Assembly: GCA_903929355.1 (NCBI GenBank)
Contig: CAIYUN010000034.1
Span: forward strand, 1-64,000
Direction of reading: 5' to 3'
Length of the DNA stretch: 64,000 bases
Source of the DNA: an uncultured Opitutaceae bacterium
GTDB taxonomy: Bacteria; Verrucomicrobiota; Verrucomicrobiia; Opitutales; Opitutaceae
Shown: piece after piece, positions 3,844-47,659 of the stretch
Numbering within the stretch: position 1 is the first letter of the stretch
Layout of the letters: each line of letters opens with the position of its first letter
The notes under the pieces: generated by a model
Seen by the model: only the letters and a program-made list of their open reading frames with translations
The model's database searches: none
What the model was told of the DNA's origin: nothing
Translations under genes and position numbers: made by a program

Positions 3844-4158
3844 GCGAACCTGCTGAAGTCTCACGAGCACCCGGCTGGGTCGCGGAGCTAAAACCAAACG
3901 ACCTCAGATTCTGGACGGACAGGCGGGGGAATCGAACCTGCGGCGAGGTCGCCGCAGCTCCAGTCGGGAGCGGCGGGCCCATCCGCCTTCGCCAGGCTTT
4001 GGCGTGACAAGGCGGTCCCGCCCTACCCACAGAAGCGGGCCAATAGTGCAAAGCCTAGGGAGGCTTGGGATAAAACTCAGGAATCCTGTGATGAAGCAAT
4101 TCGTCGAGCGTCAGCCATGACCCGAAGGGCGCCACTATCCGGCTGGGTGCCGGGGGGT
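3844..4158. other. Intergenic region with palindromic repeat
   Basis: This is the gap between convergent genes. It holds one ACC-loop palindrome (3939-3963) followed by a GC-rich stretch with the words CCTTCGCCAGGCTTTGG. A tRNA-like GGAATCGAACC string near 3929 was checked and rejected. No gene is supported. Confidence 0.5.
3939..3963 (-). repeat. GGAGC/ACC-loop palindrome, copy 1
   Basis: TGCGGCGA (3939-3946) pairs perfectly with TCGCCGCA (3949-3956); GCTCCAG follows. On the minus strand this reads CTGGAGC, stem, ACC-type loop, stem, matching the dispersed family described in the findings. Confidence 0.6.
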
Positions 4159-4992
4159 TCATTCGTCCAGCTTGAGCAGCTCGATCTTGCGAAACTCAGT
4201 CGGATGGCTCTCTGCCTGGATGCAGATATAGCCGTCCTCGAGCATCTGGGGCATGCCTTGCGCCAGCAGCAGCCTGGCGTGGGCATCGCTCGGATTCAAC
4301 TGGGGCTGACTGTAACTGATCACCGTCTCCCCATCGAGGATGTGGTTGATCAATTTGCCGCCATGCACTTCTGCCGTGATCGTCACCCACTGGTCGCCCA
4401 GGTAGATTTTCTCCTTCGCCGAAGTGCGATGCACCGTGGTCAACCGGCCATTGTACACGGCCCGGGTGTGAGGCGTGCAAAAGGAACCGTTGTTCTGGTC
4501 GCCGTGGGGATTCCCCCCGCCCAGGATTTGAACCTCGATGGACGCGGGAAAATCCTGGTTCAGCTCCATCGTGCTGGGCGGTTCGCTGAAGATCATGATG
4601 CCGTTGTTGCGGAAACCCCAGGTGGGCCCGCCCGGACACTGCTCGCCGACAAAGCGATATTCCGCCCGGATGATGTAGTGCGACAGCTTCTCCTTCCAGA
4701 ACAGATGCCCAAACTCGCCGTTGAACCGGCTGTATTGGCTGTAGTCCACCTTGAGCAGGCCGTGTTCGACATGAAACGTGTTCTTGTAGTTCACCCCCAT
4801 GACGGAGCCTTTGAATTTTGGGGTCCAGCCGTCGAGGTCCTTGCCGTTGAAGATTTGCACCCACTGCCCCTTGGGTGAGCCCGATTGGTCCGCTGCGGTC
4901 CCGGAGACCGGGGCCCCCGGACCGACCGCGCAGGAGGAGAAGAGGCCAAGGGACAGGCCGAAGCACGCGGCCAAGGGAAGGGTGGGGCGCAT
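4159..4992 (-). CDS. DUF1080 (3-keto-disaccharide hydrolase-type) lipoprotein
   Basis: A 277-residue protein. The chosen ATG at 4992 gives a lipoprotein signal with lipobox FSSC (Cys21); a longer frame to 5139 runs into repeat DNA and is unlikely to be translated. The rest is a single DUF1080 domain, a concanavalin-A-like fold, with the typical opening IFNGKDLDGWTPKF, a central NNGIMIF and a late LLLAQGMPQMLEDGYICIQ..HP.EFRKIEL. DUF1080 proteins are abundant in Verrucomicrobia and Planctomycetes; characterised members act on 3-keto-glycosides. The substrate cannot be predicted here. It is monocistronic as far as can be seen, convergent with the PEP-CTERM gene on one side and followed upstream by a repeat-rich spacer. 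Confidence 0.85.
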   Translation of the reverse strand: MRPTLPLAACFGLSLGLFSSCAVGPGAPVSGTAADQSGSPKGQWVQIFNGKDLDGWTPKFKGSVMGVNYKNTFHVEHGLLKVDYSQYSRFNGEFGHLFWKEKLSHYIIRAEYRFVGEQCPGGPTWGFRNNGIMIFSEPPSTMELNQDFPASIEVQILGGGNPHGDQNNGSFCTPHTRAVYNGRLTTVHRTSAKEKIYLGDQWVTITAEVHGGKLINHILDGETVISYSQPQLNPSDAHARLLLAQGMPQMLEDGYICIQAESHPTEFRKIELLKLDE

Positions 4993-5411
4993 ACCCAAAA
5001 GCAAAGCCCCGCGCGGGATTGGCGTCAAGGCCACCGAAGGTTCCGAACGGGTCGGGTCGTGCTTCCACCGCTGGGCGGGACCAAGGCTCCCGCCGGCCCC
5101 GGCCTGTTCCTGATTTCCTGATTTCCAAATTAACTTCAAATCTGGAACTCAGGAACTCAGGCCGGACCAATCGCTCTGGCCTTGGTCCTCCCTCCGTCCT
5201 CCTCCCCCTCTGTGTCCTCAGATTGTTCCCTCCGTGCACTCAGTGTCCGTGTTAAAGCTCCGATTCATGGCTTCTGAATTGAGCCGTGTATATTCGTGTA
5301 ATCCGTGGTTGAATCCGACTGCAGGTTTTACAGCTCGGCTCCCTCCGGCCCCGGCCTGTTCCTGATTTCCTGATTTCCAAATAACTACAAATCTGGAACT
5401 CCGTGGAACGC
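4993..5411. repeat. Repeat-rich spacer with a 55-bp direct repeat
   Basis: There is no gene. Bases 5095-5150 and 5347-5401 are near-identical direct copies (GGCCCCGGCCTGTTCC, GATTTCC words, then AAATCTGGAACTC). Between them are CCTCTGTGTCCTCAG and GTGTAATCCGTGGTTGAAT phrases of the dispersed TCCGTG-word type. The promoter of the DUF1080 gene should lie at the left end; none could be assigned. Confidence 0.6.
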
Positions 5412-6827
5412 TCACTGCGCCGGTCGCGCGGTCTTGAACGCCACCGGCCGCTCGCCGGGCGGCAGCGCGAGCAGGTCGTAATCCTGACTGCTGGTGATCG
5501 TCACCTCGGCAAACTCACCCACGGGCAGCGTGCGGGGCACATACACCCGGCCGTCGATGTCGGGCGCGTCGGCCTCGCCGCGGGCCACGCCGGGCTCCTC
5601 GACCAGGACCTTCAGCGTGCGGCCGGTCTGGCGGGCGCCGACTTCGGCCGCGATGGATTTCTGCCGCGCCATCAGGCGGTGCCAGCGCGCCTCCTTGAGC
5701 TTGGCGGGAACCTGTTCCTCCATCTTCGCGGCCCGGGTGCCCTCTTCCTGTGAATAACGGAACACGCCCAGCCGCTCAAACCTGGCCTCGCCGATGAAGG
5801 CGTCCAGCTCGTCCACATCCGCCTCGGTCTCGCCGGGGAAGCCCGTGATGAAGGTGGTGCGGATGGCGATCCCGGGGATGCCGGCGCGGATCCGCCCGAG
5901 CAGGCCCCGGATATACCCGCCGCTCGTCTCACGCTGCATTTTCTCCAGCATCCGGTCGCTGATGTGCTGGAGCGGGATATCAATGTAGCGGGCAACCTTG
6001 GGGCACTCCGCGATGGTCTGGATCAGCTCGTCGCTCCAGTGTGCGGGGTGGGTGTAGAGCAGTCGGATCCAGAAATCGCCCTCGATGGCGTTCAGCTCGC
6101 GCAGCAGGGTGGTGAGCGCGGTGCCGCGGGCGGAGTCCACGGGGGTGCGCGGGTTGGGCCGCTCGGCCCAGGTGTCCATGCCGAAGAAGGTCGTGTCCTG
6201 GGAGATCAGGTTCAGCTCCCGCACGCCCTCGGCCACAAGCGCCCGGGCCTCGGCCACGACGCTGGCGACGGTGCGGCTGCGGTGGCGGCCGCGGATTTGC
6301 GGGATGATGCAGAACGTGCAGGGGTGGTTGCAGCCCTCGGCGATCTTGACGTAGGCGAAATGCTTCGGGGTGAGCCGGAAGCGCGGGGTGTCGTAGTCCG
6401 GGATGAAAGTCGAATGCCGGGTGACAAGGTTGGCGGGCGCCTCATCCTTGCCCCGCTCCTTGGCCATGAGCCCCGTGATGATCGGGGCCACGGTCGTGAT
6501 CTGGTCGAGGCCGATGAACGCATCGACCTCGTCGTGCAGCGAGCCGGCGAGATCCCGGGAGAACCGCTGCGCCATGCAGCCGGCGACGATGAGCTTCTGT
6601 TCCCGGCGGCGTTTCCTCAGCCCGCGGCTCTGGTGCACCTCGAGGATGTGCCCGATGGACTCCTCCTTGGAGGAGTCGATGAACGAGCAGGTGTTGACGA
6701 TGACGACATCGGCCTGGGCGGCGTCGGGGATGACGGACATGCCGGCCGCATGCAGGTGGCCGACCATGATCTCGGAGTCCACGAGGTTCTTCGCGCACCC
6801 GAGGGAAAGGAGGCTGACGGTGATCAC
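5412..6827 (-). CDS. rimO: Ribosomal protein S12 methylthiotransferase RimO
   Basis: A radical-SAM methylthiotransferase that modifies an aspartate of ribosomal protein S12. The N-terminal UPF0004 domain has SLGCAKNLVDSE and two further Cys (NTCSFIDSSKEES, VAGCMAQR). The radical-SAM triad is CNHPCTFCIIPQIRGRHRSR, a RimO-type signature rather than MiaB. The C-terminus has a TRAM-like region (GRVYVPRTLPVGEFAEVTITSSQDYDL). The protein has 471 residues from GTG at 6827; the frame extends three codons to a TTG at 6836, so the exact start is open. It lies about 50 bases downstream of a small basic-protein gene (6885-6995), probably in the same transcript. A possible operator at 7143-7159 lies upstream of both. 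Confidence 0.93.
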   Translation of the reverse strand: MITVSLLSLGCAKNLVDSEIMVGHLHAAGMSVIPDAAQADVVIVNTCSFIDSSKEESIGHILEVHQSRGLRKRRREQKLIVAGCMAQRFSRDLAGSLHDEVDAFIGLDQITTVAPIITGLMAKERGKDEAPANLVTRHSTFIPDYDTPRFRLTPKHFAYVKIAEGCNHPCTFCIIPQIRGRHRSRTVASVVAEARALVAEGVRELNLISQDTTFFGMDTWAERPNPRTPVDSARGTALTTLLRELNAIEGDFWIRLLYTHPAHWSDELIQTIAECPKVARYIDIPLQHISDRMLEKMQRETSGGYIRGLLGRIRAGIPGIAIRTTFITGFPGETEADVDELDAFIGEARFERLGVFRYSQEEGTRAAKMEEQVPAKLKEARWHRLMARQKSIAAEVGARQTGRTLKVLVEEPGVARGEADAPDIDGRVYVPRTLPVGEFAEVTITSSQDYDLLALPPGERPVAFKTARPAQ

Positions 6828-6884
6828 GGCGGGCAAAGGACCACGGCGCGGGCCGCGGGGCGGGGGGCGGCGCGGACGCGCGGG

Positions 6885-8421: not shown

Positions 8422-8513
8422 CCCGCGCCCGGGCGCGGCGTGGTGGTCCGGGAACCGCCCGTCGTCCATGACGGTTCAGGCCGACCCCCTCGAAAAACTT
8501 TCCTTTCCTTCCT

Positions 8514-10663: not shown

Positions 10664-10686
10664 GGGGTGCCGGCGACCTCGCCGCC
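10664..10686 (+). repeat. ACC-loop palindrome, copy 2
   Basis: GGGGTGC is followed by the stem CGGCGA-CC-TCGCCG (10671-10684). It lies in the gap between convergent genes. The variant 5' flank is GGGGTGC instead of GGAGC. Confidence 0.45.
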
Positions 10687-10730
10687 GTTGGGGGGCATAG
10701 CCCCTCGCGTCAAAATCACGGGCCGTTGGG

Positions 10731-12383
10731 TCAGCCGGCCGACAACGAGACCGACGGCACGTAGATCTCGGGCGGGCCGCGCCGCCACCACTGGCCGGTC
10801 GCGGCGCGGGTGGCGGGGTCGGTGAAGTGATAGGGGTAGCGCACTGCTCGCACGGCGCGCGGCGGCCGGTCGGGGAAGGGGTTGTGCGCGAGGAGCGCGG
10901 TGACCGCCGGCGTGCCGCGCAGCAGGCGTTCCAGCAGGGAGTAGAACCAGGGGCTCTGCTGCGGCGGGCCGAGCGCGGCAAACCACATCTGCCAGTCGAG
11001 CCGCGGCTGGAAGGGTTCCACAAAGCCGGGCGCGCGCCCCAGGTCGCCAGGCTTCCAGCGGAACTCATAGGGCCGCCATTCCACGCCGTCGTCCGAGCCC
11101 TCGATCACAATCTCCCAGCGTTCGGTGGTCATCACCATGAAGAGGCCGTAGTTGTTGAGGCTGCGGAGGGGCGCGACCGCCGCCCGGGCGCGGAACAGCG
11201 CCTCCGGCCAGGCCGCGCGCGGCGCCAGCGAGGGCAGCGCCTGGCCCGCGGTGAAGACCACGACCAGCACCAGCACTGGAATCACGAGCCAGCGCGGCCC
11301 GAACCCGCGGGGGATGGTCGAAAGGGCCGGCGCGTTGGGGACAACACGCCCCACCACGTCGTCGGCCAAATCGGACGGGATCGGACCGATCGGTCGGATC
11401 GAGGAGTCCGCGGCAACGAACGGCGCGTTGGGGTCAACGCGCCCCACCTCGCCCGGAGTCACCGCGAGCCGCGCGCGGAGCGGCGGCACCAGCCACGCCC
11501 ACCAGTGGTCATCGAGGCAGGGCAGGCAGAGCGCCACCGTGAGGAGGTTGAAATAGGTGTAGTTGCCGGTGAGGGCAATGAGCGACATCAGCCCGGTGAA
11601 CCCGAGCGCGGCGGTGTGGCGCACGTGGCGCGGGCCGAACAGCAGAAACGGCCCGCCCAGCTCGACCGCAAACATCACCGCACCGGCGGCCTGCAAAGCA
11701 CACCCCGGCAACTGGTGCGCATACCACCCCGGCCAGGTTGGCAAGGGCTGGGTCTCGAAGTGAAACTGCAGCGCCGTGAGCCCGCGCCAGGTCGCGTCAC
11801 CGCTCGTCAGCTTGACCACGCCGGACAGGAACATCAGCCGCGCAAGCAGCCACCACAAGAGCCAGCGTGCGGCGGTGGGCGGGGCCGACGCGGCCAGCGG
11901 CGGTCGGAGCCGCCACGGCACCACGAACAGGGCGAGCAGGGTTGTCTCCAGCAGCAGCGCATCCCACTGGAAGCCGAGAAAATCCTGACCGACACTGACG
12001 AGCGACAGGTAACAGACCCACAGGCCGGCGAGACAGGGCCCGGGTGCGAGGTTGGCGAGCAGGAGCAGCGCCAGCCCGATCCCCGCCCCGCACAGCACGT
12101 GTAAAAACCCGTCCGTCCCGCCGAGCCAGCAGAGCGTGGGCACCTCCCAATACGCGACACCGCCGAGTTGCGCCCGGGCGGCCTGCAGGAACCGCCCGGC
12201 GGGCAGCACGCCCTGCGGGCCGAGGAGTCCCTCCACCTGGGTCCAGAGCGACGCAAACGCGACCAGATGCACCAACCCGAGAGTCCGCAGGAATAACCAG
12301 GTGCCGGTGCGATAGGTTGGCGGCCGGTCGCCGCCCTGCCAGCGGCGGCGCCATGGGCCCAGGCGGCTGCCCCCGGCGGCCAT
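10731..12383 (-). CDS. Lipase maturation factor (LMF/HTTM-type) family membrane protein
   Basis: A 550-residue polytopic protein. The opening TYRTGTWLFLRTLGLVHLVAFASLW and SLVSVGQDFLGFQWDALLLETTLLALF, then the late EFRWKPGDLGRAPGFVEPFQPRLDWQMWFAALGP and RYPYHFTD, are typical of the LMF1-like DUF1222 family, related to gamma-carboxylase/HTTM proteins. Eukaryotic LMF1 helps lipases fold; the bacterial function is not established. About eight hydrophobic helices precede a soluble C-terminal half. Two palindromic repeats sit in frame at residues about 312-321 (GRVDPNAPF) and 343-352 (GRVVPNAPA), in a low-conservation linker between the two halves. It starts 3 bases after the amidohydrolase-like gene stops, so it is the last gene of the long minus-strand run. 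Confidence 0.85.
   Translation of the reverse strand: MAAGGSRLGPWRRRWQGGDRPPTYRTGTWLFLRTLGLVHLVAFASLWTQVEGLLGPQGVLPAGRFLQAARAQLGGVAYWEVPTLCWLGGTDGFLHVLCGAGIGLALLLLANLAPGPCLAGLWVCYLSLVSVGQDFLGFQWDALLLETTLLALFVVPWRLRPPLAASAPPTAARWLLWWLLARLMFLSGVVKLTSGDATWRGLTALQFHFETQPLPTWPGWYAHQLPGCALQAAGAVMFAVELGGPFLLFGPRHVRHTAALGFTGLMSLIALTGNYTYFNLLTVALCLPCLDDHWWAWLVPPLRARLAVTPGEVGRVDPNAPFVAADSSIRPIGPIPSDLADDVVGRVVPNAPALSTIPRGFGPRWLVIPVLVLVVVFTAGQALPSLAPRAAWPEALFRARAAVAPLRSLNNYGLFMVMTTERWEIVIEGSDDGVEWRPYEFRWKPGDLGRAPGFVEPFQPRLDWQMWFAALGPPQQSPWFYSLLERLLRGTPAVTALLAHNPFPDRPPRAVRAVRYPYHFTDPATRAATGQWWRRGPPEIYVPSVSLSAG
11330..11356 (-). repeat. GTTG-type palindrome inside the LMF gene, first copy
   Basis: GGCGCGTTGGGGACAACACGCC is a slightly decayed member of the ACC(C)-loop family, followed by CCACC. 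It is translated in frame as part of GRVVPNAP. Confidence 0.6.
11422..11448 (-). repeat. GTTG-type palindrome inside the LMF gene, second copy
   Basis: GGCGCGTTG (11422-11430) and CAACGCGCC (11435-11443) are perfect 9-bp arms around GGGT, followed by CCACC. It is translated in frame as GRVDPNAP. Confidence 0.7.
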
Positions 12384-14639: not shown

Positions 14640-15554
14640 TCAAGCGTTAAGCGAGCCCAACTGATCCGCGAGCACGGCCATCAGCGAGCGGGTGACCGAA
14701 TTGGCCTGGAGGTCGAAGGCGGTGTCGTCAACCTGCGCCACCGGCATGACCCCGAGGAGCGCGTTGGTCACAAACACCTCCTGCGCCTGCCGCAGCTCTC
14801 CGATCCCGATGTCGCGCTCCCGCACCGTCGCCGGTCCCAGCAGTTGGATGACCCGGGCCCGCATCACGCCGGGGAGGATCCCGGACGACAGGGTGGGGGT
14901 GCTCACGATCCCGTCGCACACGACAAACACATTCGTCACCGATCCCTCCAGCACCCGGCCCCGCCGATCTATCCACAGCGCCTCGTCGAAGCCCGCCGCG
15001 ACTGCCGCCGCCCGCGCGGCCTGATGGTGGGGCCGGTGCAAGGTCTTCAAATTGCAGAACCGGCCGACCGGCGCGTCGCCGGCCAGCGTCTGCAGCCGGA
15101 ATCCCGCGGCATATTGCGCGGGTGCATAGCCGGGAGGACGCGCAAGGATGGTCTCGGACCACGCGCCCGCCTCCCGGAACACCGCGATTTTCAGGCTGCC
15201 GGCCACGAGCGCGTTGGCCGTGATCACAACCGCACACCGCTCGGCCTGCCTGGCGACATCGGCTCCGATGGTGGAGCGCGTTGACCCCAACGCGCTGGCT
15301 TGCTCATCGGCTGGAAGCAGAAGAATCGAGGAATCGCATCGCACGGGGACGGCATCCAGCGCGCGGAGCGCCCCGGCCAGCCGCGCCATGTGCTCCGCCA
15401 GCCCCACCGGCCGACCACCCAGCACCCGCACGGTCTCAAAAACTCCGTCGGCCTCTGCGAATCCCGGGTCGGGCTGCGCGGCCCGTAGCCGGTCGGACTC
15501 CGCGGGCGCGCCGTTGTGCAGGGCGTGGCGGAGAAACCCCGGGGCCGCACTCAT
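14640..15554 (-). CDS. pabC: 4-amino-4-deoxychorismate lyase (class IV aminotransferase fold)
   Basis: A 304-residue PLP enzyme that releases pyruvate from aminodeoxychorismate to give p-aminobenzoate. Family features: ADGVFETVRVLGGRPVGLAEHMARL near the N-terminus, the PLP lysine Lys170 in FCNLKTLHR, then EALWIDRRGRVLEGSVTNVFV and SGILPGVMRARVIQLL. Its start codon overlaps the pabB stop by the ATGA arrangement, and pabB makes its substrate, which favours this role over branched-chain or D-amino-acid aminotransferases of the same fold. A palindromic repeat lies in frame at residues about 86-95 (SALGSTRSTIG), in a loop between helices. Confidence 0.88.
   Translation of the reverse strand: MSAAPGFLRHALHNGAPAESDRLRAAQPDPGFAEADGVFETVRVLGGRPVGLAEHMARLAGALRALDAVPVRCDSSILLLPADEQASALGSTRSTIGADVARQAERCAVVITANALVAGSLKIAVFREAGAWSETILARPPGYAPAQYAAGFRLQTLAGDAPVGRFCNLKTLHRPHHQAARAAAVAAGFDEALWIDRRGRVLEGSVTNVFVVCDGIVSTPTLSSGILPGVMRARVIQLLGPATVRERDIGIGELRQAQEVFVTNALLGVMPVAQVDDTAFDLQANSVTRSLMAVLADQLGSLNA
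15271..15298 (+). repeat. GTTG-type palindrome inside pabC
   Basis: GTGGAGC precedes the hairpin; AGCGCGTTG (15275-15283) pairs perfectly with CAACGCGCT (15288-15296) around ACCC. It is in frame in pabC, read from the opposite strand. Confidence 0.7.
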
Positions 15555-16981
15555 GCCAGATCCTCCCCGCGCAAGGCCGCCCTCATCGCCCGGCCTTTGG
15601 CCAGCGTTTCGGCAAACTCTGCCTCCGGGTCGGAATCAGCCACGATGCCGCCGCCCACCTGATAGCTGGCCCGGCCCGCGCGGCAGACAATCGTGCGGAT
15701 GGCGACGTTGAGGGCGCAGGTCCCGTCGAAGCCCAGCCAGCCGATGGCGCCGGTGTAGACGTGGCGGCGGCCGGGCTCGAGCTCATCGATGATCTGCAGG
15801 GCGCGGATTTTCGGCACGCCGCTGATGGAGCCCCCGGGCAGCATCGCGCGCAAGGCGTCATACAGGTCGCGACCTTCGTCCAACTGGCCGGAGACGGTCG
15901 CCACGAGATGGAACACGGTGGGATGCGTCTCCAGGCGGTGTCTTTCCTCGACCCGCACCGAGCCGGCCCGGCACACCCGGCCGAGGTCGTTGCGTTCCAG
16001 ATCCACGATCATCAGCAGCTCCGCCTGGTCCTTGGCGCTCGCGACCAGTTCGGCGACCAGGTGTTGGTCCTCCGCCGCGGTGCGCCCGCGCGGCCGGGTG
16101 CCTTTGATCGGGCGGGTGCAGGCGCGGCCGGCCCCGTCGACGCGCAGGAACAGCTCGGGTGAGCTGCTCAGGATCTGCCAGCCCCCGGCATCGAGGTACG
16201 CGCCAAACGGCGCGGGGCTGAGGGCGCGCAGCCGCTCGTAGACGGCCTGGGGATGCCCGGCCAGCGTCGTCTCAAAACGCTGCGACAGGTTCACCTGGTA
16301 AATGTCGCCGGCGACGAGGTAGTCCTTGATCCGGCACACGCGCCGGAGGTAGTCCGCCTTGGTCAGGTTTGAAACCGGCTCAACCGGCTCGTAGAGGTGG
16401 GGCGCGATGCCGTGCCCGCCGAAGCCTCGCGCGAAGGCTGGGTCCCCAACGCGCCGTCCGTCCGCGGTTCGCACCGCCGATCGCAAGGCCGCGAGGATGG
16501 CTTGCGCGCTCCGCCCGCCAACCGGGTTTGCGATCAGGTAGGTTTTGCCCGCGGCCAGATCGCAGGCGATGACTCCGTCGTAAAAGCCGAACTGGGCGTC
16601 GGGCAATGCGGGCTCAGCGGGGGCGGAAAGTTCGACGCCGGCCCCGCGCGCGCCAAACTCGAACCCGAAAAAACCAACGGCCCCGCCGCCAAACCGGATT
16701 TCTCCGAGATCGGGGGTGTCGCCGCGGTACCGACCCATGAGCCCGCGCAAATGCGCCAGCGGCTCCGCGCTCACCACCTCCCGTGTGCCTCCCGATTCGA
16801 CGGTGACCAGGCCGCCCTTGGCCCGCCAGAGGAGGAACGGTTCAAACCCCAGGTAGGACCAGGCGCGCCCGGTGTCGGCCTCGGGCCGGGCGCTGTCGAG
16901 ATGGAAAAAACCAGGGCGGTCCCGGAGCGCCCGCGCGAGCGCCTCCGGGGCCGGCGCGTCTTTGAGTTCCTCAACGATCAT
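15551..16981 (-). CDS. pabB: Aminodeoxychorismate synthase component I
   Basis: A 476-residue chorismate-binding enzyme that adds the amino group to chorismate in p-aminobenzoate synthesis. The signature TRPIKGTRPRG (PIKGT with the catalytic Lys of PabB rather than the PIAGT of TrpE), SSSPELFLRV, ELLMIVDLERNDLGRV, LPGGSISGVPKIRAL and TGAIGWLGFDG are all present. The frame is open for 51 more codons upstream, but that stretch is repeat DNA, so the ATG at 16981 (MIVEELKDAPAP) is chosen. It overlaps pabC by ATGA. A glutaminase partner (pabA) is not in the window. A short segment near 16440 (GRRVGDPAFARG) resembles half of the GTTG palindrome and may be an old insertion. Confidence 0.92.
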   Translation of the reverse strand: MIVEELKDAPAPEALARALRDRPGFFHLDSARPEADTGRAWSYLGFEPFLLWRAKGGLVTVESGGTREVVSAEPLAHLRGLMGRYRGDTPDLGEIRFGGGAVGFFGFEFGARGAGVELSAPAEPALPDAQFGFYDGVIACDLAAGKTYLIANPVGGRSAQAILAALRSAVRTADGRRVGDPAFARGFGGHGIAPHLYEPVEPVSNLTKADYLRRVCRIKDYLVAGDIYQVNLSQRFETTLAGHPQAVYERLRALSPAPFGAYLDAGGWQILSSSPELFLRVDGAGRACTRPIKGTRPRGRTAAEDQHLVAELVASAKDQAELLMIVDLERNDLGRVCRAGSVRVEERHRLETHPTVFHLVATVSGQLDEGRDLYDALRAMLPGGSISGVPKIRALQIIDELEPGRRHVYTGAIGWLGFDGTCALNVAIRTIVCRAGRASYQVGGGIVADSDPEAEFAETLAKGRAMRAALRGEDLA

Positions 16982-17065
16982 GGGCAGGGAGCGCAGGCTT
17001 CCAGCCTGCACTGGATGACGGCAGGCAGGGATGCCTGCAACGGGAGGCAAGGCCGTCGGAAAGCG

Positions 17066-17177
17066 GGTGGTGACGCATTTTGAAATGCCACCCCAAGGGT
17101 AGGGGCGGCTCTCCGAGCCGTCCGCGGACGCCACGGAGTGGCGTCCCTACCCAAAGTCGGCAAAATGCGTCACCACC
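17066..17177. repeat. Three-hairpin inverted-repeat element, intact copy
   Basis: The outer 17-bp arms (17066-17082 GGTGGTGACGCATTTTG and its exact complement 17161-17177) enclose a CGGCTC/GAGCCG hairpin and a GGACGCCAC/GTGGCGTCC hairpin. Bases 17101-17149 are identical to 36621-36669, a second copy with a decayed left end. Confidence 0.75.
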
Positions 17178-17181
17178 GAAA

Positions 17182-17208
17182 AGCGGGTTGGGGTCAACCC
17201 GCTCCACC
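17182..17208 (-). repeat. GTTG-type palindrome, pabB-folK gap
   Basis: AGCGGGTTG (17182-17190) pairs with CAACCCGCT (17195-17203) around GGGT; CCACC follows. Compared with the copy in pabC, both arms carry matching changes (GCG to GGG, CGC to CCC). Confidence 0.7.
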
Positions 17209-17254: not shown

Positions 17255-17776
17255 TCACTGGGCGACCTCCCGGTTGACGCCCGGCGGCAGGGCTGCCGGC
17301 GGCTCCGCCAACCACAAACCCGCGGGGCCGACCTGGGCGGCGAGGTCCCGCACCGTCAATCCGTGGAGCAACAAGTCCGGTGCCAGCTCCGCCAACGGGG
17401 TCAGCACAAATCCCCGCTCGTGCATCCGCGGGTGCGGGAGCACGAGTTCGGCGTCGTGGCAAGTGAGTCCTTCATAAAGGAGCACATCGATGTCGATGAG
17501 GCGCGGCCCCCAGCGCTCGCGCCGCTCGCGGCCCAGGCGGAGCTCGACGGCGAGGCAGGCGGCGAGCAAGGCCCGCGGTTCGTGGGTGGTCGCGATCTGC
17601 AGCACCTGGTTCAGAAAGTCGGGCTGATCCTCCTTCCCGACCGGCCGGGTCTCGTAGATGCCCGAGGCCCGCACGAGCGTGACGGCCGGGTCGGCGGCCA
17701 GTTCCCGCGCGGCCGCGGCCAGGTGGCCGCGCCGGTCGCCCAGATTTGACCCCAAACCCAGGAAAGCCGTCTTCAT
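17255..17776 (-). CDS. folK: 2-amino-4-hydroxy-6-hydroxymethyldihydropteridine pyrophosphokinase
   Basis: A 173-residue HPPK that transfers pyrophosphate from ATP to the pterin before coupling with p-aminobenzoate. Family motifs: FLGLGSNLGDRRGHL at the N-terminus, ETRPVGKEDQPDFLNQV, and RERRERWGPRLIDIDVLLY with the two metal-binding Asp. The ATG at 17776 overlaps the end of folB by four bases. The last 20 residues (EPPAALPPGVNREVAQ) are proline-rich and outside the conserved core. Confidence 0.94.
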   Translation of the reverse strand: MKTAFLGLGSNLGDRRGHLAAAARELAADPAVTLVRASGIYETRPVGKEDQPDFLNQVLQIATTHEPRALLAACLAVELRLGRERRERWGPRLIDIDVLLYEGLTCHDAELVLPHPRMHERGFVLTPLAELAPDLLLHGLTVRDLAAQVGPAGLWLAEPPAALPPGVNREVAQ

Positions 17777-18138
17777 GCGCGCGACTTCGACGTCTCGAGC
17801 GCGACGCAGTCGAGCGGGCCGCCCAGCGGCACCGAGGGTTTCCGCACGACGACCGCCGCCTCGGTCACGCGCGGGCACAGTGCGAGGACCTGGTCGAGCA
17901 GGTCGTTGGCGAGCGTCTCGAGCAGGCGCACCCGGTCCTGCTCGACGATCTTCCGGCAGAGCGCGTAGATTTTCACATAGTCCACCGTGTCGGCGAGGCT
18001 GTCGGAGCGGGCCGCGTCGGCGATGTCGAGGGTGAGGGTGAGATCCACGAGAAAGCGCTGGCCCAGGGCGTTTTCCTCGGCGAGGGCCCCGTGGTAGCCA
18101 TAGAAGGCCATGTTCTTGAGGTGGATTTTTCCGGTCAT
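17773..18138 (-). CDS. folB: Dihydroneopterin aldolase
   Basis: A 121-residue FolB. The family opening KIHLKNMAFYGYHGALAEENALGQRF contains the conserved YGYHG and E, followed by D-rich TLDIADAARSDSLADTVDYVKIY and LLETLANDLLDQVL. It cleaves dihydroneopterin to the hydroxymethyl pterin used by FolK. Both ends overlap its neighbours by ATGA (folP stop/start at 18135-18138, folK at 17773-17776), which supports a translationally coupled operon. Confidence 0.94.
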   Translation of the reverse strand: MTGKIHLKNMAFYGYHGALAEENALGQRFLVDLTLTLDIADAARSDSLADTVDYVKIYALCRKIVEQDRVRLLETLANDLLDQVLALCPRVTEAAVVVRKPSVPLGGPLDCVALETSKSRA

Positions 18139-19013
18139 GAGGGTTCGGGCCGCGCGTCGCGGATGGCCTTGGCCATGAGCGCGGCGCGCAGATTGGCGCG
18201 CACATCGTGCACGCGCAGATACTCGACCCCGTGCCAGACGGCGATCGCGGTGGTCGCCAGGGTGCCATCCAACCGTTCCTCCGGGGGCAGATCCAGCACG
18301 CGGCCGATGACGGACTTGCGCGAGACCCCCAGCAGGAGCGGGCAGCCCAGCCGACGCAGCTCGCCGAGGCGCGCGAGGATTTCAAGGTTCTGGGTGGGCG
18401 TCTTCGCAAATCCGATGCCCGGGTCCAGAATGACACGCCCGCGGGGCACCCCGGCGGCCAGGGCGCGTTCGAGTGCGCGGCCGAGGAACTCCGCGACCCG
18501 TTCCATCGTGCGTTCCGCTGAAAGCTGAAACGACTCCTCCTGGTGCATGAGTACCACCCCGCAGCCGTGCCGGGCGGCGATGGCGGCCAACTCCGGATCG
18601 CCGTGAAACCCCCGCACGTCGTTGATCAGGGCCGCGCCGGCGGCCAGGGCCGCGCGGGCGACGGCGGGCTTGTCGGTGTCAATCGAGAGGGGGAGGCGCA
18701 GGCGGGTGGCCAGCGCCGTGATCACCGGCACGACCCGGGCGATTTCCTCCTCGGCCGAAATCTCGGTGTGGCCGGGCCGGGTGGACTGGCCGCCCACGTC
18801 GATGATCGCCGCCCCGTCGGCCACCATTTGCTCCGCCTGCCGGACGGCTGCCGCGATCCCCTGGTGCCGGCCCCCGTCATAAAATGAGTCGGGGGTGACG
18901 TTCAGGATCCCCACGATTTTGGGCCGTCCCTCAGGCCCCAATCCCTGAACACGATCCCCGGCCGGGCGCGGCGCCAGTTCCACTGCGACCGGGGAGGTGA
19001 ACGGGGGGGGCAT
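18135..19013 (-). CDS. folP: Dihydropteroate synthase
   Basis: A 292-residue DHPS joining the pterin pyrophosphate to p-aminobenzoate. Motifs: KIVGILNVTPDSFYDGG, IIDVGGQSTRPGH, PLSIDTDKPAVARAAL, INDVRGF, VVLMH, VILDPGIGFAKTPTQNLEIL and PLLLGVSRKSVIG. The ATG at 19013 puts the first motif at the usual distance; a frame extension of 92 codons lies in the promoter region and is not credible. It is the first gene of the folP-folB-folK run and divergent from the DUF1592 gene. Confidence 0.94.
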   Translation of the reverse strand: MPPPFTSPVAVELAPRPAGDRVQGLGPEGRPKIVGILNVTPDSFYDGGRHQGIAAAVRQAEQMVADGAAIIDVGGQSTRPGHTEISAEEEIARVVPVITALATRLRLPLSIDTDKPAVARAALAAGAALINDVRGFHGDPELAAIAARHGCGVVLMHQEESFQLSAERTMERVAEFLGRALERALAAGVPRGRVILDPGIGFAKTPTQNLEILARLGELRRLGCPLLLGVSRKSVIGRVLDLPPEERLDGTLATTAIAVWHGVEYLRVHDVRANLRAALMAKAIRDARPEPS

Positions 19014-23820: not shown

Positions 23821-23843
23821 TGGAGCTGCGGCGACCTCGCCGC
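23821..23843 (+). repeat. GGAGC/ACC-loop palindrome, copy 3
   Basis: TGGAGCT is followed by the stem GCGGCGA-CC-TCGCCGC (23828-23843, perfect). It lies in the gap between the DUF1552 gene and the convergent GH71/99-like gene. Confidence 0.6.
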
Positions 23844-23950
23844 CGTCCCTGCCTGTTTGGACCATGTCACGTGAGGGCGGAACGACGTCATCTCGTGCAT
23901 CCCGGTCGGCGCGCTCAGCGTCGCGCCCTACCCTCGAACCTGGTTCCGCC

Positions 23951-30953: not shown

Positions 30954-30980
30954 TGGTGCTGCAGCGACCCCGCCGCAGTC
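30954..30980 (+). repeat. ACCC-loop palindrome, copy 4 (imperfect)
   Basis: CTGCAGCG-ACCC-CGCCGCAG pairs except for one position. The 5' flank is GGTG rather than GGAGC. Confidence 0.45.
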
Positions 30981-35351: not shown

Positions 35352-35378
35352 AACCGGTTGGGGTCAACCGGTTCCACC
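35352..35378 (-). repeat. GTTG-type palindrome before the lactonase-like gene
   Basis: AACCGGTTG (35352-35360) pairs with CAACCGGTT (35365-35373) around GGGT; CCACC follows. The stem sequence differs from the other copies but pairing is kept. Confidence 0.7.
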
Positions 35379-35461: not shown

Positions 35462-36592
35462 ATGTCCTCCCACCCCGCCTCTTCCCTGCTGGCGCTGGCC
35501 GCCACGCTTTCGCTCCTCACGCCGCTGCGGTCCGCCGCCGCCCAGTTCGATGTATTCTACGGCTCGCCCAACGACGGGGCCGGCAACGGCATTTCGATCG
35601 GTCGCTTCGACAGCACGACCGGCACGCTCACCTCCCCCCACCTCGCGGTCGAGGCCGCCGGGCCGTCGTTCTTCATCATCGCCCCCGACGGCAAGCACCT
35701 CTACGCCTGCCTCGAGAAGGCCGCGAAGGTCGCCGCCTATGAAATCAGCCCGACCGACCATGCGCTGAAACTGCTGAACACCCAACCCTCCGGCGGCGCG
35801 GGCCCCTGCCACATCAGCCTCGACCAGACCGGCCGCTTCGCCCTGGTGGCCAACTACGATGCCGGCAGCGTCTCGGTGTTGCCCATTTCGGCCGACGGCT
35901 CGCTCGGCGCGAGCACGGGCTTCGACCAGCAGGCGGGCACAGGCCCGGACAAGGACCGCCAGGAGGGCCCGCACGCCCATGGCATCATCACCGACCCCTC
36001 CAACCGTTTCGCCCTTTGCTGCGATCTCGGCAACGACCGGGTGTATGTCTATCATTTCGACGCCAAAACCGGCAAGTTGACGCCGAACGACCCGGCCTGG
36101 GGCGTGGTGTCGCCGGGCTCCGGTCCGCGTCATCCAATCTTCAGCAAGGACGGCAAGGTGCTTTATGTGATCAATGAGATGGGCGCCACCGTCACCGCCT
36201 TCAACTGGGACCCCGCCAAAGGCACCCTGACCGAGTTTCAAACGGTCAAAACCCTCCCCGCCAATTTCACCGCTTTCAACAAGGACGCCGAGATCAAGCT
36301 CGATCCGTCCGGCAAGTTTCTCTACGCCTCGTCGCGCGGCCACGACTGCATTGCGGTCTACAGCATCGACAAGACCGGCGGGCTGTCCCAAATTCAGGAC
36401 GTGGACAACCGCGGCAAGACCCCGCGCTACTTCAGCTTCGACCCCACCGGCCATTGGGTCATCTCCGGCAGCCAGGACTCCAACACCGTGGCCGTCTTCC
36501 GCGCGGACTCCGGAATGCTGACGCCCGTGGGGGACCCCGTCGCCGCCCCCGCCCCCATCTGCATGCAATTCCTGCCAGTGGCGGGGAGGTAA
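35462..36592 (+). CDS. Secreted lactonase-like seven-bladed beta-propeller protein
   Basis: A 376-residue protein with a signal peptide (SSLLALAATLSLLTPLRSAAAQ). The repeats GISIGRFDSTTGTLTSPHLA, PSFFIIAPDGKHLYACLE, GPCHISLDQTGRFALVANYDAGSVSVLPI, HAHGIITDPSNRFALCCDLGNDRVYVYHFD and GKTPRYFSFDPTGHWVISGSQDSNTVAVF are typical of the lactonase/6-phosphogluconolactonase (PF10282) family. Export makes a pentose-phosphate role unlikely; such secreted members are common in Verrucomicrobia. The start is the ATG at 35462; the frame upstream includes a repeat. Confidence 0.88.
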   Translation: MSSHPASSLLALAATLSLLTPLRSAAAQFDVFYGSPNDGAGNGISIGRFDSTTGTLTSPHLAVEAAGPSFFIIAPDGKHLYACLEKAAKVAAYEISPTDHALKLLNTQPSGGAGPCHISLDQTGRFALVANYDAGSVSVLPISADGSLGASTGFDQQAGTGPDKDRQEGPHAHGIITDPSNRFALCCDLGNDRVYVYHFDAKTGKLTPNDPAWGVVSPGSGPRHPIFSKDGKVLYVINEMGATVTAFNWDPAKGTLTEFQTVKTLPANFTAFNKDAEIKLDPSGKFLYASSRGHDCIAVYSIDKTGGLSQIQDVDNRGKTPRYFSFDPTGHWVISGSQDSNTVAVFRADSGMLTPVGDPVAAPAPICMQFLPVAGR

Positions 36593-36618
36593 GGGCATTC
36601 TGAAATTACGCCTCAAAG

Positions 36619-36698
36619 GCAGGGGCGGCTCTCCGAGCCGTCCGCGGACGCCACGGAGTGGCGTCCCTATCCAATGACGGCAAACTGCGTCACCACCG
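36619..36698. repeat. Three-hairpin element, second (decayed) copy
   Basis: Bases 36621-36669 are identical to 17101-17149. The right arm survives as CAAACTGCGTCACCACC with one change, while the left arm is degenerate. It lies directly after the lactonase-like stop codon and may serve as a terminator-like structure. Confidence 0.7.
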
Positions 36699-39403: not shown

Positions 39404-39664
39404 TGACGTTGGAAAGTAACAAGTATCAAGTGGCAAGTCAGGGTCGTCCGCCTTCGAGGGTAAACTTTTTCCTATTCCCCCGCCGCAGGGAGCGCGAACA
39501 CCAATCCGACGAACCGTTCTTAACCACTTAGGCACACTAATCGGCACTGATCCGGCCACCAAACCCGCGGCGGGGTCGCCGCGGCTCCAGCCAGGCACCC
39601 TCCTTCGCAAGGCTTTGGAGGGCACGCCAGGAACCAAGCACCAAGCACTATAAGCCAAGCACCC
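39404..39664. other. Intergenic spacer with palindrome and repeat words
   Basis: About 260 bases holding an ACCC-type palindrome (39565-39590), the word CTTCGCAAGGCTTTGGAGGG and tandem AAGCACCAAGCACT words just before the DUF3142 gene. No gene is supported. Confidence 0.45.
39565..39590 (-). repeat. GGAGC/ACCC-loop palindrome, copy 5
   Basis: CCGCGGCG (39565-39572) pairs perfectly with CGCCGCGG (39577-39584) around GGGT; CTCCAG follows. On the minus strand it reads CTGGAGC, stem, ACCC, stem. Confidence 0.65.
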
Positions 39665-43121: not shown

Positions 43122-43190
43122 GGATGAGGTGGAAAGCTCCTCGCCTCCGGCGGCCAAACGCGGTGTAGCATCCCTTGCGCGCGGAATAAT

Positions 43191-43213
43191 CGGTTGGGTC
43201 AACCGGTTCCACC
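43191..43213 (-). repeat. GTTG-type palindrome, decayed copy
   Basis: CGGTTG-GGT-CAACCG with CCACC downstream; one loop base is missing compared with other copies. It lies in the gap between the convergent 746-residue gene and the SNF2 gene. Confidence 0.55.
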
Positions 43214-43227
43214 TCTGACCCCTCCGT

Positions 43228-45927
43228 TCACTCCAGGATCTGGCGGAGGCTTTCAAGGTCGAGGATGCTGGCGAGGCTGTCCTCTTGCACCACGGCGGCG
43301 GCGAGGGCGGATTTCTCGCGCTGCATGAGGCGGATCTTCTGCTCGACGGTGTCGGCCGCGACGAGCCGGTAGGCGACCACGGGCTGGGTCTGCCCGATGC
43401 GGTGGGTGCGATCGATCGCCTGGGCCTCCACCGCCGGGTTCCACCACGGGTCACAGAGGATGACATAGCTCGCGGCCGTGAGATTGAGGCCGAAGCCGGC
43501 GGCTTTGAGCGAGAGGAGAAACACCGTCTGGGTGCGGTCGGTCTGAAATTTCTCCACCAGCTCGGCGCGGTTTTCGGTCTGCCCGGTGAGCACGAGGTGG
43601 TTGATGCCGGCGGCCACGAGGCGGGGCTGGATGAGCTTGAGCAGCTCGACGAACTGGCTGAACACGAGCACCTGCATGCCCTCGTCGCGCAGCTCCTCCA
43701 GGCGCTCCAGGAGCGCCTCGAGCTTGGCGCTGGGGAGTTCGGCGTGGGCGGGGGAGACCAGCGCGGGGTGGCAGCAGATCTGGCGCAGGCGCAGCAGGCT
43801 GGCGAGGACGTTGAAGCGCACGGCGTCGAGCGCGCGGTCGGTCTCGACCCCCAGCAACTGCGCGCGGGCACGCTTGAGCTCGGCGTCGTAGAGGCGGCGT
43901 TGCCCACCCTCGAGGTCCACCAGGATCTCGTCCTCCGTGCGCGGGGGCAGCTCGGGCGCTACCTGGGCCTTGGTGCGGCGCAGCATGAAGTGGCGGACGC
44001 GGCGGCGCAGGCGGGCGGCGGCGGCCGGGTCGTCCGCCGGGAACTGGCGACGAAAGCCCGCCTGCGGGCCGAGCAGGCCCGGTTGCACAAAGGCGAACAG
44101 GCTCCACAAGTCGAGCAGCCGGTTTTCGATGGGCGTGCCGGTGAGCGCGAGCCGTTGCGCGGCCGGGATCGCGCGGGCCGTGACGGCGGTCTGGCTGAGG
44201 GGGTTCTTGATGAACTGTGCCTCGTCGAGGATGACGGCGTCCCAGTGGTGCCGTTTGAACCACGCCGCGTGGTTGCGGAGCTGGACGTAATTGGCGACGA
44301 GGATCGCCGGGCCGTCGGTCGGGCCGGGCGGGGCCGGTTCGCCGGCGTGCTCGGGGGTGAAGAGGATAGCGCCCAAGGTCGGGGTGAAACGCTCGGTCTC
44401 GGTCAGCCAGCCGTGCATCACACTTTTGGGGCAGACGACGAGGGCGCGATACGGCGCGGGGATCAGGCTGGTGGCCTGACTTCCGGACGAGGGAGCCGCG
44501 ACGACCCCGGCGCGGTTTCGGCCGGTCTGGTCGCCCGGACTTCCGGGCGCGTGCCGGACCGCCGCCGCATGCAGGAGCCAGGTGAGCGCCTGCACGGTTT
44601 TACCGAGACCCATGTCGTCGGCGAGGATGCCGCCGAAGCCGTTGGCCGCCAGATGGGCGAGAAAATGAAAACCTTCCTCCTGATAGTGCCGCAGTGTCGC
44701 GCGCAGGCCGGCGGGCAACGGAGGCGCGGGGAGGGCGGCGAGCGAGGCGGCGCGCTCGCGCAGTTCGGCGGCGAGCGCGGCGTCGCGCGCCATGAAGGTC
44801 GCGGCCTCGCCCGCCAGCTGGAGCGCGTGCAGCCGGTGCCGGGCCGGGCGCCCTTGGGTGAGCAGGTCCTCGGCGCGCAGGCCGAGTCGGTCGAGCGCGG
44901 CGGTCGTCGCGGCCGAACCGGCGGCGGCGGGCGCGAGCTCGAGGCGGCGCCAGCCGACCCCGGCGAGCCGCACCCATTGGCCGCCGGCCTTCATCAGCAG
45001 CGCGAGTTCGTCCGGCGTGAGCGTGGTGTCGTCCACCTGCAGTTCGGCGGTGAGGTCGAACCAATCGCGGCCCCCGCCCGCCGCCGGCACGGCGGTGAAC
45101 TCCACCCGGGCGTGCAGGGGCGGATCCAGCAGGCCGGTGAGCTCGGGCGAGGCCTCAACCACCACGTCCGGCGGGAGCGTCGCCCGCCAGGCGATGAACT
45201 CGTCGGGAAAGTTTTTTCCGGCGGACCGGGTCCAGGCACCGGCCCAGACATTCCAGCGGAGGCGGAAGTCCGCGAACAAGGCGCCGGCGGCGTTGGCGGC
45301 GGCGACCTCGGGGGCCACCGCGGCCTCGCCCGGTGCGCGGGGCGGGGGGGCACCCCCGGGGGTCCACTGCCAGCCGCCATCACCGCTCCAGTGTTGCTCG
45401 CAGGGCGGGTCGGCGGACCGAACGAGGAGCCGGGCGTGAAACAGCAACGGGTCGTATTCCGCCTCCTCCGAGCTGAGCCAGCATTTCACGATCCCCTGCG
45501 CCGGGACCAGCCGCACCGGCCCCAAGGGCTGGCCGGCACCGGGAGCCACCGGAGGCGGCGGGGCGGGGGCGGGCTCGATGACGGCGGCCCGGGTCGCGGC
45601 GGCCTCGCATTCGGCCAGCCAGGCCAGGCCGGCGGCGTGGCCATGTTCGCAGTTTTTGGACCGCGGGCAGGTGCAGAGGGAGCTCCACTGGCCACGGGTG
45701 AGGAAGAGCTTGACGTCAAACGGGTGTTCCTCGCCGGTCACACGAGACTGGACAAAGTGGTCGGCGTCGGCCCACACCGTCTGGACCTGGCCGGCCGCGA
45801 AGCAGTCCTCGCCGAGTTGGCGGACACGAGGTTCACGCGCGTCGAGCCAGGCCCGGAGCGCGATCAGCGCCCCGGGGGCCTGCACGCTGCGCCCGGGGGG
45901 CGCGCGGTCGCGAAGTTTGGCGGCCAT
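43228..45927 (-). CDS. SWIM zinc-finger SNF2-family helicase
   Basis: An 899-residue protein. The N-terminal SWIM zinc finger is CTCPRSKNCEHGHA (about 77-90). After a spacer domain, a SNF2 motor has motif I ILADDMGLGKTVQAL, DEAQ box VILDEAQFIKNPLSQ, LTGTPIENRLLDLWSLF, and C-terminal motif VI QAIDRTHRIGQTQPV. These proteins remodel protein-DNA or RNA polymerase complexes; the bacterial role is not well defined. An extra loop rich in Gly/Ala/Ser (HAPGSPGDQTGRNRAGVVA) lies between motifs I and Ia. ATG 45927 is chosen; the upstream frame overlaps the glyQS end. Confidence 0.9.
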   Translation of the reverse strand: MAAKLRDRAPPGRSVQAPGALIALRAWLDAREPRVRQLGEDCFAAGQVQTVWADADHFVQSRVTGEEHPFDVKLFLTRGQWSSLCTCPRSKNCEHGHAAGLAWLAECEAAATRAAVIEPAPAPPPPVAPGAGQPLGPVRLVPAQGIVKCWLSSEEAEYDPLLFHARLLVRSADPPCEQHWSGDGGWQWTPGGAPPPRAPGEAAVAPEVAAANAAGALFADFRLRWNVWAGAWTRSAGKNFPDEFIAWRATLPPDVVVEASPELTGLLDPPLHARVEFTAVPAAGGGRDWFDLTAELQVDDTTLTPDELALLMKAGGQWVRLAGVGWRRLELAPAAAGSAATTAALDRLGLRAEDLLTQGRPARHRLHALQLAGEAATFMARDAALAAELRERAASLAALPAPPLPAGLRATLRHYQEEGFHFLAHLAANGFGGILADDMGLGKTVQALTWLLHAAAVRHAPGSPGDQTGRNRAGVVAAPSSGSQATSLIPAPYRALVVCPKSVMHGWLTETERFTPTLGAILFTPEHAGEPAPPGPTDGPAILVANYVQLRNHAAWFKRHHWDAVILDEAQFIKNPLSQTAVTARAIPAAQRLALTGTPIENRLLDLWSLFAFVQPGLLGPQAGFRRQFPADDPAAAARLRRRVRHFMLRRTKAQVAPELPPRTEDEILVDLEGGQRRLYDAELKRARAQLLGVETDRALDAVRFNVLASLLRLRQICCHPALVSPAHAELPSAKLEALLERLEELRDEGMQVLVFSQFVELLKLIQPRLVAAGINHLVLTGQTENRAELVEKFQTDRTQTVFLLSLKAAGFGLNLTAASYVILCDPWWNPAVEAQAIDRTHRIGQTQPVVAYRLVAADTVEQKIRLMQREKSALAAAVVQEDSLASILDLESLRQILE

Positions 45928-46003
45928 GGGACAGGGAGGGGAGCGCGGCGGCGGGGCCGGTTGGGGAAACCCGCGCCCCGGGGGGCGGCACGCTCCCGGG
46001 AGA

Positions 46004-47545
46004 TCAAAACACCTGTTCCTCGAGCAGGGCGAAGAGCTCGGCCTCGGTGACCCGCCGCTGCTGCATCGAGTCGCGCTCGCGCAACGTGAAGGTGTCGCCC
46101 GGCTGCTCGAGGGTGTCGAAGTCAATGGTCACGCACCACGGCGTGCCGATCTCGTCCTGCCGACGGTAGCGTCGGCCGATGGCCCCGCCGTCGTCATAGA
46201 ACACCGCGTGGCGGCGCTTGAGCTTCGCGTGCAGTGCGCGGGCGCGGGCGACGAGCGGCTCCTTGTTCTTCAGGAGCGGGAGCACGGCGACCTTCACGGG
46301 GGCGAGGCGGGGCGACAGGCGGAGCACGGTGCGTTTCTCCACGTTGCCCTTCTCGTCGGTCACGTCCTCCTCGGCATAGCCGGCGCAGAGCACCGCGAGC
46401 AGGATGCGGTCCACGCCGACGGCCGGCTCGATGACATGGGGGACGAATTTCTTCTTCGTGGCCTCGTCAAAAATCTCCTGCGGCCGGCCGCTGGCGTTGG
46501 CGTGCTGGGTGAGGTCGTAGCTGCCGCGCGCCGCGATGCCCCACAGCTCCTGCACCCCGAACGGGTAGCGGAACATGATGTCGGTGGTGCCCTTCGAGTA
46601 AAACGCGAGCTTGGCCTTGGGGTGGTCGTATTCGCTCAGGTGCGTGTCGGGCAGGCCGATGGAGCGCAGCCAGTCCTTGCACCAGTCGATCCAGTGGCGG
46701 TGCCATTTCGCCCAGTCGTCGTCCTCGTGAATGAAGAACTCCATCTCCATCTGCTCGAACTCGCGGGAGCGGAAGATGAAATTGCGCGGGGTGATCTCGT
46801 TGCGAAACGATTTGCCGATCTGGGCGATGCCGAAGGGGAGCTTCACCCGGCCCGTGTCCACGATGGTCTTGAAGTCCACAAACATGCCCTGCGCCGTCTC
46901 GGGGCGGAGGTAGGCCACCGACGAGGCGTCGGTCATCGCGCCCACGTTCGTTTGAAACATCATGTTGAAGGAGCGCGGCGGCGTGAGGCTGCCGGGCTCG
47001 CCGGTGGCGGGGGAGGGGATGAGGGGGATTTGGTCGGGGGTGGCGGTTTCGAACGACAGCGGGACGATCCCCTCCAGTTTGCCGCGGGCGGCCTTCTTGC
47101 GCTTCAGCTCCTCGGCGAGTTTCTGCAGCTCGGCCGAGGTGTCCTCGCTTTCCAGTGCGCAAACAAACCCCAGGTCAACCGGGACGCCGTCCTCCTGGGC
47201 GACGATCACTGGGGCGAAAAACAACTGGTCCGCCCGGTACCGCTGCTTGCTCACCTTGCAGTCCACCAGCGGGTCGCTGAAGCCGGCAACGTGGCCGGAG
47301 GCCTCCCAGACCTTCGGGTGCATGATGATGGAGGATTCGAGGCCGACGATGTCGTCGCGGCGGCGCACCAGGTCATTCCACCAACAGTCGCGGATGTTTT
47401 TCTTCAGCTCGACGCCGAGCGGACCGTAGTCAAAAAAACCGTTGAGGCCGCCATAGATTTCGGAGGAGGGAAAGATGAAGCCGCGGCGCTTGGCGAGCGA
47501 GACAACGGCTTCCATGAGGTTGGCGGAGGGCGCGGGGGTGGACAT
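46004..47545 (-). CDS. glyQS: Glycyl-tRNA synthetase, dimeric (alpha2) type
   Basis: A 513-residue class II synthetase, homologous to the archaeal/eukaryotic and Gram-positive homodimer form rather than the alpha2beta2 bacterial type. Motifs: [39 protein letters not shown] (motif 1/2 region), [25 protein letters not shown], and the C-terminal [14 protein letters not shown] with a HGTP anticodon domain. The start is ATG 47545. It is followed 76 bases downstream by the SNF2 gene. Confidence 0.94.
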
Positions 47546-47633
47546 AGGAACGGGCAGCACTACGCTAGCGGGAGCCTGCGGTCAATGGTCGCGTGGAGGA
47601 GATTTTAGTGGGGGAGGGCGGTTGGGTTCAGCC

Positions 47634-47659
47634 ATGGAGCCGGGGCGACCCCGCCCCGG
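47634..47659 (+). repeat. GGAGC/ACCC-loop palindrome, copy 6
   Basis: ATGGAGC precedes the stem CCGGGGCG-ACCC-CGCCCCGG (47640-47659), perfect 8-bp arms. Confidence 0.65.

Follow-up and report, generated by a model that had tools for sequence, protein, structure and literature searches.

GTGG-tagged stem-loops scattered through an Opitutaceae genome very probably belong to a REP–RAYT system

The first 64,000 nucleotides of contig CAIYUN010000034.1 of an uncultured Opitutaceae bacterium (GenBank assembly GCA_903929355.1; this whole stretch is called the window here) contain scattered stem-loops whose stems differ in sequence and remain paired, which raises the question of what these hairpins are and why their pairing is kept. 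A first-pass annotation of the window took them for one family of at least a dozen copies and argued for a selected RNA or DNA structure, not merely a copied sequence. Our analysis indicates that the scattered stem-loops are ordinary repetitive extragenic palindromes (REPs), a kind of element known from earlier work, a relative of this organism included. Specifically, the copies that we call family A are very probably a GTGG-tagged, non-autonomous REP population spread by a REP-associated tyrosine transposase (RAYT), an IS200-like HUH/Y1 enzyme, and family A belongs to an Opitutaceae-like REP–RAYT system. A striking hairpin pattern is thereby settled as a known mobile-element system, a caution against taking every dispersed set of covarying hairpins in a bacterial genome for RNA genes.

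We found a hairpin, perfect or near-perfect, at all 12 of the places named in the first-pass annotation, but these hairpins form two families with different 5′ tags and not one. Family A, with six window copies, is built from 5′-GGTGG, a 9-bp stem ending in GTTG/CAAC and an ACCC-type loop, and family B, also with six, carries GGAG as its tag in most copies and has a stem that ends in GCG/CGC. The two stem endings that had been reported are both present, split by family, and the GG[AG][GA]C-like flank is not common to all copies: that at 10667 is without GGAG and that at 30955 has GGTG. Pairing is flawed by a wobble pair in the copy at 11329 and by a broken pair in those at 43188, 23822, and 30955. 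The family A copies (window coordinates) are:

11329–11354, minus strand: family A REP, GTGG / GGCGTGTTG / TCCC / CAACGCGCC, in an LMF1-like gene, read in frame as VGRVVPNAP
11422–11447, minus strand: family A REP, GTGG / GGCGCGTTG / ACCC / CAACGCGCC, in the LMF1-like gene, read in frame as VGRVDPNAP
15271–15296, plus strand: family A REP, GTGG / AGCGCGTTG / ACCC / CAACGCGCT, within a class IV aminotransferase frame
17182–17207, minus strand: family A REP, GTGG / AGCGGGTTG / ACCC / CAACCCGCT, between frames 15554–17134 (minus) and 17258–18436 (minus)
35352–35377, minus strand: family A REP, GTGG / AACCGGTTG / ACCC / CAACCGGTT, upstream of a lactonase gene with its probable start codon (ATG) at 35462
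43188–43212, minus strand: degenerate family A REP, GTGG / AACCGGTTG / ACC / CAACCGATT

Perfect hairpins with a stem of at least 9 bp and a loop of 3–6 nt number 13 in the window, six of them members of the described families, versus a mean of 3.1 and a maximum of 4 in 10 Markov shuffles. The sequence GTTGGGGTCAAC occurs five times with at most one mismatch (0.30 expected), and the family A pattern (GTGG, 5 nt, GTTG, a loop of 3–4 nt, CAAC) occurs six times versus three summed over 100 shuffles. Across the genome (3,796,882 bases in 91 contigs, 96.2% complete), the pattern GTGGN5GTTGN4CAAC, a 26-nt element, has 101 exact matches and its reversed-pattern control none; a related pattern with the same tag read on the other strand has 84, again with a control of 0. 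These two sets were selected by their tag and are unable to test its conservation. When 324 kb of sequence, made up of the window and 13 further 20-kb stretches, were checked without regard to the tag, eight GTTG-loop-CAAC hairpins with at least four of five outer pairs were recovered, six of them in the window; GTGG is in place in seven of the eight and lies one base off in the other. G immediately precedes the tag in 99 of 99 family A copies, and outside the tag the copies share little beyond one base (the flank alignment took in 100 of the 101, one being cut by a contig end). On the 3′ side there are two favoured starts, TTCC and GG, both of which recur in dimer spacers. Among 150 genomes of the same bacterial family, 108 have at least one family A match, low counts being at control level, and 43 have at least seven (highest control count 6), with a maximum of 314; one of these relatives, G003, has 25 matches and 2 controls.

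The search pattern fixes the four inner pairs of the family A stem and leaves five outer pairs free. In 40 distinct copies all five free pairs show double-sided changes, and the covariation score is 0.231 versus 0.086 for shuffled and at most 0.081 for slid structures. Standard pairs occupy 94.4% of cells, a value to which the four pattern-fixed inner pairs contribute, versus 85.4% in shuffles, and double-sided cells number 26 versus 6.5; when the structure is slid, pairing falls to 26.9–51.7%. A second set, comprising 36 distinct stems from 69 dimers among the matches listed in 17 relatives, is 91.7% paired over its five free middle pairs versus 67.9% shuffled, with a shuffled maximum of 0.761. 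Two proposals of the first-pass annotation, that stem bases change in a compensatory way and that pairing is conserved over sequence, are borne out genome-wide for family A, on which the covariation test was run; in family B the compensatory changes are seen by eye, on inspection of the stems.

Family A copies occur singly, paired, and in tandem. Neighbours no more than 120 bp apart form 35 pairs, 24 of them head-to-head, none tail-to-tail, and 11 tandem, a count made from a relaxed set of 129 copies that includes some chance hits. Spacers cluster at 1–3, 17–23, and 29–30 nt, the dimer pattern having allowed up to 30 nt. Partners carry different stems in 77 of 87 pairs among the matches listed; this comparison used 18 of the genome's own 24 head-to-head pairs (the six dropped all have differing stems) and, in other genomes, plus-strand rows only. 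Pairs with identical stems number 10 among the matches listed versus 17.6 under random within-genome pairing (P 0.008). The idea that heterodimers protect against the formation of long hairpins is already in print (in the relevant passage of PMC3733652). We considered it and did not find it secured: this genome alone shows no deficit of identical-stem pairs (3 versus 3.4, P 0.53), and two local hairpins formed in 8 of 40 dimers folded with RNA parameters (of 69 among the matches listed).

An associated REP-type transposase had been suggested as something to look for, and RAYT genes do adjoin the repeats in relatives. P0001, a RAYT of 158 aa from genome G117, is flanked on either side by family A hairpins. 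It matches PF01797 (Y1_Tnp; E 7e-7) and the solved TnpAREP structure 4er8 (E 3.4e-4), and against the NCBIfam model REP_Tyr_transpos (NF047646) it scores 72.8 bits (E 2.5e-20), which is below the 80-bit cut-off; L034, a RAYT of the genome under study, scores 90 bits. The P0001 sequence contains DHVHA and YIRRNP, which we take to be the putative HUH and catalytic Tyr motifs of the Y1_Tnp domain. A match to P0001 at E 1e-8 or better is present in 155 of 252 genomes of the family, and at 27 of 30 loci among the best matches GTGG hairpins with varied but paired stems lie near the RAYT gene. In a tree of 65 RAYTs (65 of 83 loci with a tblastn match, short or weak ones having been dropped, from 102 loci, with two duplicates left out) the P0001 clade has 31 rows with support of 100/99, of which 25 are flagged GTGG, 6 are unflagged, and 0 are flagged GTAG. 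L034, which is flanked by GTAG-GGACGCCTC hairpins, sits in a clade next to it that comprises three GTAG rows. The GTGG label requires 5 changes on this tree versus 20.6 when shuffled, and none of 500 shuffles gave a value as low. RAYT–REP pairing is thus documented across the Opitutaceae-like family, and the tag (GTGG or GTAG) follows the RAYT clade. Two genomes of the same genus carry a P0001-clade RAYT (L180 and L195), that of L195 with an internal stop.

Several observations weigh against this reading of family A. A search with P0001 found no GTGG-clade RAYT in the contigs of the genome that were examined, and the sole match there at E 1e-8 or better has 39% identity and lies beside GTAG-tagged hairpins; a Y1_Tnp search of the genome gave four matches, L034 among them, and GTTG-loop-CAAC hairpins are absent from all four. 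Among the 74 RAYT loci collected first (L031–L034 and L108–L177; PF01797 matches), a strict family A hairpin is present in only two cases, in one of which it lies about 1 kb from its RAYT, the 30 loci described above were picked by their similarity to P0001, and L165, a GTGG-flagged RAYT, falls outside the P0001 clade. No RAYT was present at 25 loci fetched with family B patterns. With regard to the stems, one of five covariation measures (further pair types, 7 versus 7.7) is not above the shuffles, the covariation covers the outer pairs only, and the shuffles ignore relatedness. Finally, the assembly consists of 91 contigs at 96.2% completeness, and several contigs end in REPs. Since no GTGG-clade RAYT was found in the genome's own contigs, we infer the cognate enzyme from relatives, and the family A copies may be orphans of a RAYT that was lost or is unassembled. 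G000 contigs C8, C21, C31, C38, and C39 end in or beside family A REPs; the assembly probably stops at such repeats, and a RAYT could lie concealed there.

Passages of PMC8266576 and PMC6006769 describe a GT[AG]G consensus, the recognition by RAYTs of tag plus hairpin, and suspected RAYT loss where REPs persist. In the mechanism that we propose, the strand 5′-GGTGG-stem-ACCC-stem-3′ would fold into a hairpin whenever it is single-stranded, as may happen in lagging-strand replication, and a RAYT would recognise the tag, loop, and folded stem, cut adjacent to them, and rejoin the REP, or a head-to-head pair (REP doublet forming a hairpin, REPIN), elsewhere. Such an enzyme would need the folded stem and tolerate many stem sequences, so that stems would covary while tag and loop stay fixed. 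The hairpin is most simply explained as being kept because a transposase recognises it in single-stranded DNA. According to a passage of PMC8266576, a tag changed to GTGG leads to cutting at CC; CC stands at +3/+4 in 33 of the 101 family A copies. The opposition drawn in the first-pass annotation between a selected structure and a copied sequence appears to be a false choice, as these elements look like mobile copies.

We consider it unlikely that the hairpins instead work as RNA, whether as terminators, as stabilisers of mRNA, or as sites for protein binding, and are maintained by selection acting on the transcript. They are strong (−13 to −15 kcal/mol with RNA parameters in three examples), and REPs elsewhere have been hypothesised to act on mRNA (in a passage of PMC3733652), but the window has no Rfam match at gathering thresholds, wobbles show no strand preference (8 G.T/T.G versus 9 A.C/C.A), copies lie inside genes on either strand, and RAYT genes are flanked in a clade-specific manner. 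The selected RNA structure that had been entertained for the window is therefore not upheld, although the hairpins may have a secondary effect on RNA. Less probable again is the notion that family A represents fossils of an IS200/IS605-like element, or of a miniature inverted-repeat transposable element (MITE), with other terminal repeats. RAYTs do fall in the same Y1 superfamily as IS200/IS605, and some family B copies are embedded in a roughly 200-bp repeat whose ends, CCAACGTCTG/CAGACGTTGG, are inverted. This MITE-like repeat, however, is seen with family B only, whereas family A copies have little in common beyond tag and preceding base, stand in single, paired, and tandem arrangements, and flank short RAYTs in relatives. 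As for chance GC-rich palindromes, an explanation that the first-pass annotation had itself raised, the GC content of the window (67%) makes chance hairpins common, with 34 expected at a stem of at least 7 bp; nevertheless the conserved tag and the counts of the family A pattern in the genome and the window against their controls already refute a chance origin, which we regard as having a negligible probability.

Within the GTGG-tagged REP population there are also clear examples of intragenic REPs. Judged by a rule based on codon usage, 15 of 92 family A copies lie in a coding-like context versus 1229 of 2000 random positions, an extragenic bias measured on 92 of the 101 copies, as nine had too little flank. 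In the window, three of the six family A copies fall within frames that encode members of recognised protein families, two of them in the following gene:

10734–12383, minus strand: LMF1-like gene (lipase maturation factor), PF06762 at aa 137–296 and PF25179 at aa 409–543

The REPs at 11329 and 11422, 93 bp apart, are read in frame between the two Pfam domains, and in an alignment (13 of 80 homologues) both REP peptides fall in a linker of variable length. Relative to an Opitutaceae homologue (L278, 51% identity) the linker of the window protein has about 50 extra aa, of which the two 9-aa REP peptides make up 18. The third intragenic copy, at 15271, lies in the class IV aminotransferase (pabC-like) frame 14643–15554 (minus) and is read as SALGSTRST (aa 87–95). 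The codon-usage rule missed this copy, so the 15 copies in a coding context are a lower bound. Most copies called coding share a single reading frame on the same strand, giving V-x-R-V-x-P-N-A-x (11 of 15 in this genome and 4 of 5 in relatives, 15 of 20 together). It is conceivable, though rather doubtful, that in these bacteria the GTGG REP has become a tolerated protein module, in which case both the transposase and the need to leave the host protein unharmed may have shaped the repeat; the different frame used at 15271 counts against this. We also asked whether the GG variant is a subtype adapted to genes. Of the GG-stem copies in this genome, 7 of 14 were called coding, versus 8 of 78 others (Fisher P 0.0014), but relatives do not show the same difference (2 of 18 GG versus 3 of 27 AG loci), and we rejected the GG subtype as a general feature.

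The closest described counterparts of family A are in PMC3733652 (2013), which, within the literature on REPs surveyed and as far as the parts of those sources covered extend, alone names Verrucomicrobia. Passages of that paper describe GTAG REPs of Opitutus terrae, one family of which is mostly GTGG, with complementary stem subfamilies, heterodimers, and intragenic copies. The GTAG-20/GTAG repeats of O. terrae resemble family A in being from Verrucomicrobia and in their alternative complementary stem residues, their dimers and heterodimers, and their many intragenic copies; GTAG-20, likened to family A here by description and not by consensus, is a possible match to it. GTGG REPs with RAYTs are tabulated for Pseudomonas and Stenotrophomonas (PMC2817692, Table 1), and share with family A a GTGG or GGTGG tag, a short-loop palindrome, and the link to RAYTs, but differ in stem and loop sequences and in host phylum. 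The REPINs of P. fluorescens SBW25, as portrayed in the part of PMC3116915 consulted, are likewise inverted REP pairs that are the likely unit, with a RAYT link and compensatory changes, whereas the partners in family A usually differ in stem (the 77 of 87 pairs among the matches listed) and spacers go down to 1 nt. The palindromic repeats (RPEs) of Rickettsia conorii, like family A, lie in frame within protein-coding genes, but are grouped in a passage of PMC3733652 with CGTC-tagged repeats and not with GTAG/GTGG.

Family B probably represents a further REP-like family. Its tag, GGAG, does not agree with GT[AG]G, its stem was not found at the RAYT loci scanned, and its pattern is present in 4 of 150 genomes of the family, including this one, and in 0 of 5 same-genus relatives. 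Its window copies are:

3938–3961, minus strand: family B hairpin, GGAG / CTGCGGCG / ACCT / CGCCGCAG
10667–10688, plus strand: degenerate family B hairpin, without the GGAG tag
23822–23845, plus strand: family B hairpin, GGAG / CTGCGGCG / ACCT / CGCCGCCG, with one broken pair
30955–30978, plus strand: degenerate family B hairpin, GGTG / CTGCAGCG / ACCC / CGCCGCAG
39565–39588, minus strand: family B hairpin, GGAG / CCGCGGCG / ACCC / CGCCGCGG
47636–47659, plus strand: family B hairpin, GGAG / CCGGGGCG / ACCC / CGCCCCGG

The MITE-like repeat of about 200 bp, whose inverted ends are imperfect in some cases, was seen at L037, L038, L042, L044, and L045 (approximately 1340–1570); it carries one GTAG-type hairpin and one family B hairpin, and some family B copies lie inside it. 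A third hairpin type, omitted from the first-pass annotation, has two copies in the window:

17126–17150, minus strand: family C, REP-like hairpin, GTAG / GGACGCCAC / TCC / GTGGCGTCC, in the 104-bp repeat 17075–17178
36646–36670, minus strand: family C hairpin with an ATAG tag, in the 104-bp repeat 36595–36698

The two copies of the 104-bp repeat are 89% identical, and the GTAG-type hairpin resembles those at the genome's own RAYT (L034).

Other repeats were seen in the window. A perfect 13-bp inverted repeat with a 5-nt loop (47785–47815) lies near a family B copy and differs from it in sequence. A dispersed repeat ending in ATCCGTGGTTRAA is present at 5270–5313, 60255–60298, and 60552–60595, with 66–80% identity to a reference copy. 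Lastly, neighbouring open reading frames at 51532–55582 contain long direct repeats (73–83% identity, spaced by 1843–1870 bp), which probably reflect a tandem gene duplication.

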